A DNA stretch of 20,392 nucleotides, taken from IMG/VR virus record IMGVR_UViG_3300044911_001356, positions 1 through 20,392 of that record. One strand, 5' to 3'. Positions 2,323 through 18,593 of this stretch are shown here, piece by piece; positions within the stretch are counted from its first letter, which is position 1; every line of letters begins with the position of its first letter. The position numbers were made by a program, and so were the translations under genes. This DNA comes from a virus. The notes beneath the pieces are model-generated. The model did not search any database. It was not told the DNA's origin and saw nothing but the letters and a program-made list of their open reading frames with translations.

Positions 2323-3435
2323 ATGGCATTAGGTTATTGCCCCGCGATGTTACAACACATGAAATATGTGATTGGACAAAACGCACCGGAACATAAGATT
2401 ACTCCTTCGGGATTTTTACGCGCAACTTTGGAGAAAGGCGCACAAGCAACACCAATCGCTGATTCTTTAGCACTTGCAAATACTGCGGGTCATATTAAAG
2501 ATTTGCGTTTGAAATACTACCAACGTACTACACCAGCGCAAATGGCTACTGCTGATAATTGCGATATTGATTTAGTACAAGCGTATGATGAAATCACTAT
2601 TGATACTACTTCAATCGTGAAATTCGGATTACATTTCGACCAAGCTACCATCGCACGTTACTGTGATGAGGCTTCTGCAACCGTTTCAATCGGTGGCGCA
2701 CCTACAAGATTCATGCAAGAACATTTAGCAGGCTTAATGGCTGCAATGAATGGATTTGTTGGTAAAATCGACCAAACATTGTTAGGTCAAATCGTTTGGG
2801 GTAAGAACGCAGTAACGGGTGCAAACACCGCAGTAACTGTGAACTTTAACGATGATTCAACTGTAAACAACTTTTCAGAAGGTTGGACAAAGATTATGAC
2901 TGACTATCGTTTTAACGAAGGTCAAGGTACTCCAATTGTAGTTGGTAGCGGATTAGTTGACTCAGCAGCAGTGCAAGCAATGATTCCTGCAATGACTCAA
3001 TATGCACAGTTGAACAACAACGCAGCTATGGGTCAAATGGATTACTACCATGACATCTACATGAAAGATGCAGTAGGTACAAATCAATTCGGTGTATTCC
3101 AACCTGGAACTTTTGGACTTGTTGAACTTGATCGTTACAGAGGCTTTAGAGCTCAGCAATTAGGTTTATCAACTTTCTGGAACATGGCAGTTCCGTTTAA
3201 CCTACCTGGTAGCGATGGCTTACTTGGAATGTTAAACATCGACTTCCAATTAAGAGAACTTGATTGCCCTACTGAAACAACTGTTGGTTATGAAGAAACT
3301 ACACTTGGCGCAGGTTATTCATTAATCATGTCTAAGAGATTTGCTTTATGGCAAGTACCTAACGATGCTTACTTAGCAGCGGACAGATTAACTGGAAACA
3401 ACGGTGCATTACGTTACACAGCAACTAACACTTAA
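2323..3435 (+). CDS. Major capsid protein (probable)
   Basis: 370 aa, 13 bp after the scaffold-like gene. Codon choice differs visibly from the neighbours (frequent GCA, GTA, TTA, ACT, few rare codons), as expected for the most highly expressed virion gene. The protein has an N-terminal helical/extended part, a long mixed alpha/beta core rich in Asn, Gly and Ala, a loop with TLLGQIVWGKNAVTG, and a C-terminal segment ending in SKRFALWQVPNDAYLAADR. Size and position fit an HK97-fold capsid subunit that assembles around the scaffold. There is no long N-terminal delta domain, which agrees with a separate scaffold gene. Fold-level assignment needs structure comparison; the name rests on order, length and composition. 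Confidence 0.7.
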   Translation: MALGYCPAMLQHMKYVIGQNAPEHKITPSGFLRATLEKGAQATPIADSLALANTAGHIKDLRLKYYQRTTPAQMATADNCDIDLVQAYDEITIDTTSIVKFGLHFDQATIARYCDEASATVSIGGAPTRFMQEHLAGLMAAMNGFVGKIDQTLLGQIVWGKNAVTGANTAVTVNFNDDSTVNNFSEGWTKIMTDYRFNEGQGTPIVVGSGLVDSAAVQAMIPAMTQYAQLNNNAAMGQMDYYHDIYMKDAVGTNQFGVFQPGTFGLVELDRYRGFRAQQLGLSTFWNMAVPFNLPGSDGLLGMLNIDFQLRELDCPTETTVGYEETTLGAGYSLIMSKRFALWQVPNDAYLAADRLTGNNGALRYTATNT

Positions 3436-5482: not shown

Positions 5483-6025
5483 ATGGCATATTATCCATCG
5501 GGTTGTGATGAAAACATTACAAACCATACATGTGGCACATGTGGCGTTGAGTTATCTCGCGTACGTGGCACCGCATTCGTAAATAAAAGCTATTACGCCA
5601 CCCTATCAGCCGACTTTGAAGATGAGGCTTTATGGGCTGCGGGCGTAGCATCGGGTGCAATCATTGTTTATCCTGAAACACAAGGCGAATTTGATGGCGG
5701 AACTCCAAACATGGGACAAGGTTATGGCGACACTGAAGAAAGTTTAAACTCTTATACTTTCATGTTATCGTTCAAAGACCCTAACTATGTAGGAAACCGC
5801 GACCATTTCAATAGCGTTAAAGGGTCAAGAAACTTTCACGTTGCATTTAGAAGTGAAACAGTGTTGGCCATCAGTGATGAGCCTTGCACAATCGTACCTA
5901 AGAACCCAATCGCAAACGATTTAAAAGTTGAGCGCACTTGGGATGTTGAGGTTAAATGGACAAGCGATAACTTCCCTGAAGAGTCGGCTATTCCTGCTAA
6001 CTTATTTACTTGTTACGTAGTTTAA
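5483..6025 (+). CDS. Virion protein, copy 1 of a tandem paralogous pair (tail tube candidate)
   Basis: 180 aa. It is clearly homologous over its whole length to the next gene: the shared pattern includes FYPS/YYPS near the start, Cys8, Cys17, ELxRVR, KSYY/KSFY, TQGEFDGG / TQGEYNGG, KDPxYVGN and GSRNFHVAFRSET / GSRNFYIAFCSET. It is beta-rich with no membrane or signal segment. Codon use is regular, and a GC-rich hairpin sits just after its stop, as often seen behind a strongly expressed virion gene. Position after the tail-terminator-like gene points to tail tube, but a decoration or tail-sheath-like role cannot be excluded. Confidence 0.6.
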   Translation: MAYYPSGCDENITNHTCGTCGVELSRVRGTAFVNKSYYATLSADFEDEALWAAGVASGAIIVYPETQGEFDGGTPNMGQGYGDTEESLNSYTFMLSFKDPNYVGNRDHFNSVKGSRNFHVAFRSETVLAISDEPCTIVPKNPIANDLKVERTWDVEVKWTSDNFPEESAIPANLFTCYVV

Positions 6026-9496: not shown

Positions 9497-9563
9497 TAAA
9501 CAATACAGCCCTCACATCTCTGCAAGGGCTGTAACCTAAACTAATTAACCTATGAAAACGCCA

Positions 9564-9596
9564 CAAATATAATAATTATCATTTAACCATCGTAAA
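9564..9596 (-). promoter_or_regulatory. Bacteroidota-type promoter, leftward
   Basis: On the minus strand TATATTTG (9564-9571) fits the -7 consensus TAnnTTTG exactly. The -33 partner is weak: TTTA at 9593-9596, 21 bp away, matches three of four bases of TTTG. It lies just downstream of the end of the leftward gene block, so its product would be the repeat-bearing non-coding region. Confidence 0.45.
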
Positions 9597-15986: not shown

Positions 15987-16178
15987 ATGAAAACATTTAC
16001 TTTTAAGCTGCTAACAACAATAAAATTTAAAAATATAACTATTGACTTGTATTCGAGTACATACGGTTATTTTGTTGAAACTTCACAAGGTTTGGTTTCT
16101 GATTATTTTAAGATTAAAAAAGAAGCTACAAATTACATTGCTAACACAAAGCGTAATATTAAAATAGAGGCAATATGA
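15987..16178 (+). CDS. Small basic hypothetical protein
   Basis: 63 aa, AT-rich and Lys-rich, beta-like in the first half (FKLLTTIKFKNITIDLYSST) and helical towards the end (IKKEATNYIANTKRNIK). Not recognised. It has its own promoter. Its stop overlaps an ATG (ATGA at 16175-16178) that opens a weak 57-codon frame I do not accept as a gene. Confidence 0.5.
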   Translation: MKTFTFKLLTTIKFKNITIDLYSSTYGYFVETSQGLVSDYFKIKKEATNYIANTKRNIKIEAI

Positions 16179-16194
16179 AAATAACTAACCCCAC

Positions 16195-16258
16195 AACACC
16201 CCAATTGCAGACGAGGCTGTGCTACTTTTGCGCGAAGATGCAGACGGATTGGGGTGTT
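16195..16258 (+). promoter_or_regulatory. Promoter inside nested inverted and direct repeats
   Basis: AACACCCCAAT (16195-16205) and ATTGGGGTGTT (16248-16258) form a perfect 11-bp inverted repeat. Directly inside it TGCAGACG occurs twice (16206-16213 and 16239-16246). Between the direct repeats lies TACTTTTG (16223-16230), an exact TAnnTTTG box; a TTG at 16205-16207 is only 15 bp upstream, so the -33 box is poor. The block is more GC-rich than its surroundings. The symmetry suggests operator sites or a long leader hairpin controlling the genes from 16278. Confidence 0.5.
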
Positions 16259-16277
16259 AATTTTAAAACCATAAACT

Positions 16278-17843: not shown

Positions 17844-18338
17844 ATGAAACTAACAATCTATCAAATCGAACAGAATTACAATCAATTAGCAGAGCAATTA
17901 ATTGATAATGATGGCGAGCTTACAACCGAGTTAGCCGAACAACTTGCCATCACAGAAGAACAACTACAAAACAAATCAGTTGCTTATTCCTTTGTGATTA
18001 AGCAAATGGATGCTGATATTGACACCATTGATGCTGAAATAAAACGACTCCAGGCTGCAAAGAAACAACGCGAAAAGGCAAGCGAATATCTAAAGGATCG
18101 TATCAAACATGCAATGGAGTTATTCAGCATTGATGAAATCAAAACACCTTTGGTTAAGATTAACTTTAGAAAATCTGAATCAGTTGAGGTGGATGATGTG
18201 AACTCACTACCTATGGCATATAAGACTGTGAAAATTGTTGAAACTGCCGATAAAGCTTTTATCAAGAAAGCAATCAAAGATGGTGTGTTTGTTCCTGGTT
18301 GTTTTATTGTTGAGCATCGGAACTTGCAGATTAAGTAA
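17844..18338 (+). CDS. Gp157 family protein (siphovirus Gp157-like)
   Basis: 164 aa, full length for the family. An N-terminal helical region (LTIYQIEQNYNQLAEQLIDN) leads to a long coiled coil (about residues 45-95, with TIDAEIKRLQAAKKQREKAS and EYLKDRIKHAMELF), then a beta part (VKINFRKSESVEV) and a C-terminal segment with KAFIKKAIKDGVFVPGCFIV. This layout is characteristic of Gp157, which accompanies phage recombination genes; a role in resistance or recombination has been suggested for the family but is not settled. The start lies 1 bp after the previous stop. Confidence 0.8.
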   Translation: MKLTIYQIEQNYNQLAEQLIDNDGELTTELAEQLAITEEQLQNKSVAYSFVIKQMDADIDTIDAEIKRLQAAKKQREKASEYLKDRIKHAMELFSIDEIKTPLVKINFRKSESVEVDDVNSLPMAYKTVKIVETADKAFIKKAIKDGVFVPGCFIVEHRNLQIK

Positions 18339-18353
18339 TTATTGCTATATTTG
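18324..18353 (+). promoter_or_regulatory. Promoter of the structured RNA element
   Basis: TTG (18324-18326), 19 bp, then TATATTTG (18346-18353): both boxes match the Bacteroidota consensus. The -33 box lies inside the last codons of the Gp157 gene. The start would be near 18360, just before the first stem of the RNA element. Confidence 0.75.
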
Positions 18354-18359
18354 CAAAGG

Positions 18360-18450
18360 TGTTTCGGTCTCACATAATAGAAACATAACAATATTGCCCT
18401 TTGAGAGGCGCAAGGACGTGAGACCCCTTGCAAATCTATAAGGGCTTTTT
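18360..18450 (+). ncRNA. Candidate structured small RNA or attenuator with pseudoknot and terminator
   Basis: The 126 bp between Gp157 and the next gene hold dense pairing potential. Stem A: GGTCTCAC (18366-18373) with GTGAGACC (18418-18425), 8 bp. Stem B: GCCCTT (18396-18401) with AAGGGC (18440-18445), followed by six T (18446-18451). A and B cross, giving a pseudoknot topology. An alternative stem, GCAAGG (18410-18415) with CCTTGC (18426-18431), nests inside B and encloses the 3' strand of A, so it would compete with A. A longer read-through RNA could also pair 18349-18359 with 18426-18435. Own promoter plus terminator suggest a discrete RNA of about 90 nt; conditional termination controlling the downstream replication genes is the other option. 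Confidence 0.6.
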
Positions 18451-18464
18451 TAATTTTATACACA

Positions 18465-18593
18465 ATGAAAATATTTATAATCAAGTCACCAAGTGGCAAA
18501 GTTTACACTTTAAATGCTGAATCAAGGTTTCATGCAATACAAAAAGCAATAGTTAAAGATGATTTTAAATACACATCAAACCAATATAAATAA
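18465..18593 (+). CDS. Small hypothetical protein after the RNA element
   Basis: 42 aa, ATG at 18465, TAA at 18591-18593 overlapping the next ATG (TAATG). It starts MKIFIIKSPSGKVYTLNAES, a beta-hairpin-like stretch, then a short helix (RFHAIQKAIVKDDF) and a polar end. The coupled stop and the lack of another frame support it as a gene. As the first gene after the terminator-bearing RNA it would be the direct target of any attenuation. Confidence 0.6.
   Translation: MKIFIIKSPSGKVYTLNAESRFHAIQKAIVKDDFKYTSNQYK

Follow-up and report, generated by a model that had tools for sequence, protein, structure and literature searches.

A putative ~90-nt structured RNA with its own promoter and terminator in a phage replication module

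Introduction

What does a 126-bp gap in the replication/recombination module of a phage encode? The window analyzed here, a 20.4-kb stretch of DNA (20,392 nt) from an IMG/VR virus record, has such a gap at positions 18339–18464, bordered by the stop codon of a 164-residue gene on the 5′ side and by an ATG at 18465 on the 3′ side. The upstream gene (17844–18338, + strand) encodes a Gp157/Mu Gam-like end-protection protein (PF05565, E-value 5e-36; phrog_253), and the module around the gap comprises RecT-like, Gam-like Gp157 and DnaB(-like) genes. The downstream gene is a small ORF of 42 residues (MKIFIIKSPSGKVYTL..., 18465–18593, + strand, from translation), which is replaced by unrelated ORFs in the homologues. 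An earlier note on this DNA proposed that the gap, inside a replication module, holds a compact element specifying an RNA with crossing stems, which is served by a promoter and a terminator of its own. Our analysis bore out this description and revised the way in which the RNA was thought to fold.

Results

Architecture and predicted fold of the element

As claimed earlier, the gap is equipped with a consensus promoter (18324–18353, + strand), which consists of a TTG (18324–18326) inside the last codons of the Gp157/Gam-like gene, a 19-nt spacer and a −7 box TATATTTG (18346–18353). The box fits the Bacteroidota sigma consensus TAnnTTTG, which is accompanied by a TTTG near −33 (PMC7366714). The same −7 box, with a TTG ~20 nt 5′ of it, reappears behind unrelated upstream genes, and the RNA is predicted to start at ~18359–18362.

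Four stems (termed S1 to S4) follow on the + strand. The 5′ hairpin S4 (TGTTTC 18360–18365/GAAACA 18380–18385), found by both minimum free energy (MFE) and alignment folding, was missing from the earlier list; its letters are nearly invariant, and all six pairs are retained in 27 of 27 sequences of class A, to which the window element belongs. Its 14-nt loop holds the 5′ strand of S1 (GGTCTCAC, 18366–18373). The terminator hairpin S2 (GCCCTT 18396–18401/AAGGGC 18440–18445), identified by covariation and extended by AGA 18404–18406/TCT 18435–18437, encloses S3 (GCAAGG 18410–18415/CCTTGC 18426–18431), which likewise covaries and makes up the tip of the hairpin. The 10-nt loop of S3 (ACGTGAGACC) bears the 3′ strand of S1 (GTGAGACC, 18418–18425), which pairs with the 5′ strand over 8 bp. 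A T6 tract (18446–18451), recognized in the sequence and by a promoter-terminator scan, forms the putative end of the intrinsic terminator, and the 42-residue ORF starts 13 nt past it. Both crossing perfect stems of the earlier description, the 8-bp S1 and the 6-bp S2, are present, as is the U-tract.

Folding without S1 yielded an MFE of −26.8 kcal/mol (z = −3.2), which was equalled by two of 200 shuffles, and the isolated S1 duplex is worth ~−12.6 kcal/mol. Consensus fold, MFE and centroid concur on one structure that leaves the S1 bases unpaired, and none of the three contains a conserved alternative (anti-terminator) pairing. The earlier note had listed a third perfect stem that excludes the first. 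The stem itself, S3, is present with 6 bp; however, it has no bases in common with S1 but closes the 10-nt loop that bears the 3′ strand of S1, so that exclusion is not established. As S1 and S3 share no base, they point to a kissing-loop pseudoknot, and S1 to S4, which all use different bases, can be modeled as one such pseudoknot. Mutually exclusive folding as the hallmark of a riboswitch is not supported by this compatibility, nor by the class F elements (see below), in which both loops are exactly 7 nt long and fully complementary. The proposal that read-through and promoter-initiated RNAs would fold differently is not supported either, since it depends on a non-conserved long-range pairing of TTTGCAAAGG with CCTTGCAAA. 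We rejected this pairing, which involves the promoter −7 box and is lost in most homologues; these have TTTGCATTG or TTTACAAAG where the pairing strand would be.

The sequence has the features of a stand-alone small RNA, namely TTG-N19-TATATTTG, a 6-bp stem with T6, and no ORF. Judged from these signals, the 126-bp gap probably contains a Bacteroidota-type promoter, a ~90-nt RNA and an intrinsic terminator. The class A RNAs contain no ATG. In class F (e.g., L006, ~3166–3266), an ATG within the 5′ hairpin opens a ~32-codon frame across the whole RNA. A leader peptide was rejected on the grounds that class A lacks an ATG and that the substitutions in the class F frame, by eye, look structural rather than coding.

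Two further elements of the window were noted. A short promoter-terminator unit at the end of a minus-strand operon (9504–9571, − strand; TATATTTG ... GCCCTTGCAGAGATGTGAGGGC), termed unit J, has near-identical copies in most related genomes and lacks an S1 pairing. A strong hairpin at 16187–16264 (+ strand; AACACCCCAATT...GATTGGGGTGTT) overlaps a small ORF; a weak 24-bit match of the class B model (R2) at 16161–16263 was dismissed as a member, because it is this kind of hairpin over a small ORF and has no S1.

Covariation and the coding strand

In the class A set (27 distinct RNAs), 99.6% of the cells are paired, with 148 double-changed cells compared to 59.5 after shuffling, whereas slid controls are at most 49% paired. 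The covariation score is 0.47, against 0.19 for shuffled and at most 0.075 for slid controls. Paired cells amount to 100% in S1, 99.3% in S2 and 99.4% in S3 (n = 27 each), and 4/8, 5/10 and 5/6 pairs, respectively, are double-compensatory, counts that rest on sequences related by descent. These compensatory changes in homologues support the compact RNA element of the earlier note. In class A, S1 exists as three alleles, GGTCTCAC, GATTCCAC and GGTTCGAC, each with its own complement, which implies few independent evolutionary events.

The other classes also change both strands together. In class B, one strand of S1 has an additional C, matched by an additional G in the opposite strand (ACCGCCAA/TTGGCGGT, ACCCGCCAA/TTGGCGGGT); in class C, one letter is lost on each side (GTTGCGGC/GCCGCAAC, GTTGCGC/GCGCAAC). 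The 11-bp pairing of class H carries two compensatory changes (GCTTATTCAGT/ACTGGATAAGC, GCTTACTCACT/AGTGGGTAAGC). In class F, S1 is 100% paired, the middle of the kissing loop shows one A-U to G-C change, and 10 pairs are altered on both sides versus 2.6 after shuffling. S1 strands taken from different classes pair poorly; the exceptions are closely related strands and a small number of mixed combinations. Conservation of the fold in nearly all related phages, while its letters are swapped, makes the element almost certainly functional.

Wobble pairs indicate which strand is selected. Read as the + strand, the class A cells contain 34 G-U and 0 A-C, and hence the + strand RNA is the selected product. 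This strand test rules out an inverted repeat or site acting at the DNA level; as to an antisense partner of the ColE1 type, G-U pairs occur on the + strand only, which argues for a + strand structure but would be compatible with an antisense transcript as well. The 5′ strand of S1 and S2 are joined by an A/U-rich linker that is similar (GAAATTTAACAA-like) in classes B, C, D, E and H, and this linker may occupy the groove of the pseudoknot.

Classes and distribution

When the protein of the upstream gene was used as a query, 72 loci were retrieved, and the DNA 3′ of the stop codon was sorted. All 70 readable loci (72 minus one that ends too early and one with a distant gene) carry an RNA of the same plan, in classes that are unlike in sequence: A in 18, B in 32, C in nine, and F in the remaining 11 close loci. 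Class F lies slightly further downstream, ahead of a gene whose start, by eye, resembles the VirE/primase type. In class F loci such as L006 (2880–3110), L058, L065 and others, the Gam-like gene is separated from the RNA by a plain terminator and a stretch rich in A and T. This stretch holds CACATTGA/TCAATGTG repeats in both orientations, with a partial copy beside the RNA promoter in several loci, and is a candidate operator or origin by its sequence.

Pattern scans and a second protein search revealed a second context, in which 34 of 35 readable loci next to an unrelated nuclease-like gene (by eye, YqaJ-like) carry class A or B; there, the stop codon TAA of the gene lies within the −7 box TAAGTTTG. 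A descriptor designed on classes A to C (a 5′ strand pairing with the terminator-tip loop, plus an upstream −7 box) detected 22 units in 18 genomes of 29–40 kb, 20 of them with a strong terminator stem (strict), compared to 0.5 units in shuffled genomes and one in reversed genomes, none strict in either. It recovered classes D and F, neither of which was used in its design. Class D (GTAGGAG/CTCCTAC) is a second RNA at another site in several genomes, with varied genes behind it, and the promoter-terminator scan added classes G and H, with fewer examples, which lie ~1.3–3.2 kb 3′ of the first RNA in several genomes. Class G is defined from few sequences and class E from one; E and H are H-type pseudoknots and not kissing loops. 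At the class D sites (L326 on the − strand, L317, L334, L311, L091 and others), the accessory gene behind the RNA differs between phages and is often followed by unit J, and the starts of some of these genes (MNVLSLFDGMSCGQ...) resemble DNA cytosine methyltransferases; the site is probably a slot for exchangeable cassettes. On one 39.6-kb contig (G005), a class B RNA lies toward either end, at 5744 and at 39542, each on the − strand and the two differing slightly in sequence; the contig may represent a circular genome whose assembly includes a strain variant.

These data also dispose of a plain terminator preceded by promoter-like letters by chance. Many weak TAnnTTTG boxes do occur in AT-rich phage DNA; nevertheless, this explanation is refuted by the loop-loop covariation and by the enrichment of 20 strict units versus 0 in shuffled genomes, and the near-universal presence of the element also speaks against it.

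The two-hairpin plan, with loops that are fully complementary within each molecule, partner-specific across most classes and exactly 7 nt each in class F, could in principle lead molecules to pair with one another as dimers or rings, like phi29 pRNA or the larger GOLLD/ROOL. We regard this as unlikely, as linkers of ~10–30 nt permit pairing within one molecule, classes E and H as H-type pseudoknots do not possess two closed loops, and a packaging or cage partner is not known.

Searches beyond this phage group

A search of Rfam 15 with the window gave no match at the gathering threshold, and GOLLD and ROOL were likewise absent at this threshold from the window and classes A to D. The best sub-threshold hits scored 18.3 bits (E 0.37) for class A, 20.8 (0.34) for B, 15.8 (1.7) for D and 19.5 (1.9) for C, all well short of the gathering thresholds. 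The small RNA is previously uncatalogued and matches no Rfam family. Blastn of the window element and of classes B, D and F against 50,697 cultured-phage records gave short chance matches only and revealed no relatives. Among phages with a distant Gp157 (at most 49% identity), model searches of two gave no match; the E-values of models with short calibration are rough.

A pattern search of bacterial genomes returned 35 stretches, of which one is clearly real: a 4.6-kb contig (L279) in a Bacteroidetes MAG. It was also the only match of the class A model in 396 genomes of that phylum, and perhaps belongs to a phage that was misbinned. Judged by the promoter type and this single contig, these freshwater phages appear to have Bacteroidota hosts.

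No other occurrence of the S1 8-mers of alleles A1 to A3 and B2 was found in genomes of their own class, and an antisense target inside the phage was accordingly rejected for these alleles. Stretches of 11–12 nt complementary to the 5′ end of the RNA do exist, in genes common to genomes of any RNA class; being independent of the RNA class, they give no target signal.

Genomic contexts and the mode of action

Classes A and B precede six or more unrelated ORFs (MKIF.., MYTYY.., MISVFK.., MKQVNL.., MKFPFG.. and MEVLLK..), and the same RNA stands behind at least five upstream sequence contexts, each copy with a −7 box and a U tract. Alleles with unlike S1 are found between identical neighbors, which represents exchange of the whole cassette. 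The constant downstream gene set of a riboswitch or attenuator was not found, with about six ORFs behind A and B and several genes behind D.

We favor, at a probability of about one half, that this promoter-RNA-terminator cassette produces a stand-alone, terminated ~90-nt structured RNA that acts mainly in trans. Transcription starting at this −7 box would yield an RNA that folds into the 5′ hairpin S4 and the terminator hairpin S2/S3. The apical loops of the two would then pair through the 8 bp of S1, so that the front of the RNA is docked on the terminator of the same molecule and the whole is compact and closed. Its partner in trans could be, e.g., a protein or an RNA of the host or of the phage; the terminator would restrict read-through into the following genes. 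This reading is favored by the cassette form, the compatibility of the stems, the exchange of alleles and the varied neighbors; with S1 compatible with the terminator, no switch is required.

The lack of a phage target for the S1 8-mers of A1 to A3 and B2 weighs against action in trans, and other observations suit a leader acting in cis. At all sites of classes A and B, the next same-strand ATG lies 3–15 nt past the U tract; units are located within essential operons of the same direction, and further units sit at transcription-unit boundaries of the same genome. In a cis leader, the promoter would drive the downstream operon and the pseudoknot-terminator would attenuate read-through, perhaps controlled by a factor bound to S4/linker or to a loop. 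Two or more terminators in an essential replication operon would indeed require bypass or regulation, and in allele A1 the junction from TAATTTTATACACA to the ATG is common to three unrelated ORFs. We consider a cis leader possible, though it is the less probable reading, because no competing anti-terminator pairing was found among the compatible S1, S2, S3 and S4, the downstream genes are highly variable, and alleles with different S1 precede one and the same ORF, a variation that switching in cis would not call for.

Position also raises the question of a replication origin element, in which the transcript would serve as primer RNA or form an R-loop before the replication genes. Classes A, B, C and F do stand ahead of primase/helicase genes, and an AT-rich inverted-repeat stretch lies 5′ of some class F copies; however, class D has the same plan and sits at other positions, ahead of accessory genes that include a methyltransferase gene, and the RNA precedes two different replication systems (DnaB in the window, a primase/helicase set in G007/L099), which makes an origin role highly improbable.

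Discussion

In the open PMC literature and to our general knowledge, the same plan was not found in the descriptions of four systems that resemble this RNA. The HMP-PP (thiS) riboswitch is of similar size, and shares a functional RNA within an intrinsic terminator, an unusually conserved terminator loop and a possible pseudoknot; its aptamer is embedded in the terminator, its pseudoknot competes with the terminator, and its ligand-gene neighbors are fixed (PMC6478431). In the phage RNA, by contrast, the terminator stays intact with the pseudoknot, the loop letters vary by compensation, and the neighbors vary. To our knowledge, HK022 put has neither a U tract nor loop-loop pairing. It is an early-region phage RNA that acts via its structure near the transcript start and suppresses pausing and termination in cis (PMC9378689). 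By analogy, put could serve as the model if the phage element acts in cis.

Kissing loops of ColE1 are ~7 nt. ColE1 RNA I and RNA II also have fully complementary loops whose letters provide specificity, but there two distinct RNAs, transcribed from opposite strands, pair with each other (PMC9458437). In the phage RNA, both loops lie in one transcript, and selection keeps two sites of a single strand complementary. GOLLD and ROOL are phage-encoded structured RNAs with kissing loops, whose role is not known; they span several hundred nt (GOLLD >800), lie near tRNA islands and form multimeric cages (PMC12286853), whereas the RNA described here measures ~90 nt and has no Rfam match.

A wider and more doubtful interpretation, which we offer tentatively, is that these phages place a common RNA device at many transcription-unit starts, i.e., a promoter followed by an RNA that docks its 5′ segment on its own terminator, with the specific docking pair perhaps differing per site. 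If true, one factor could open or close all sites together, and phage gene timing would be RNA-based in bacteria without known Hfq/ProQ. The RNA biology of these hosts is poorly known, and the natural compensatory alleles are ready for testing how docking of a loop on the terminator affects termination, RNA stability and infection.
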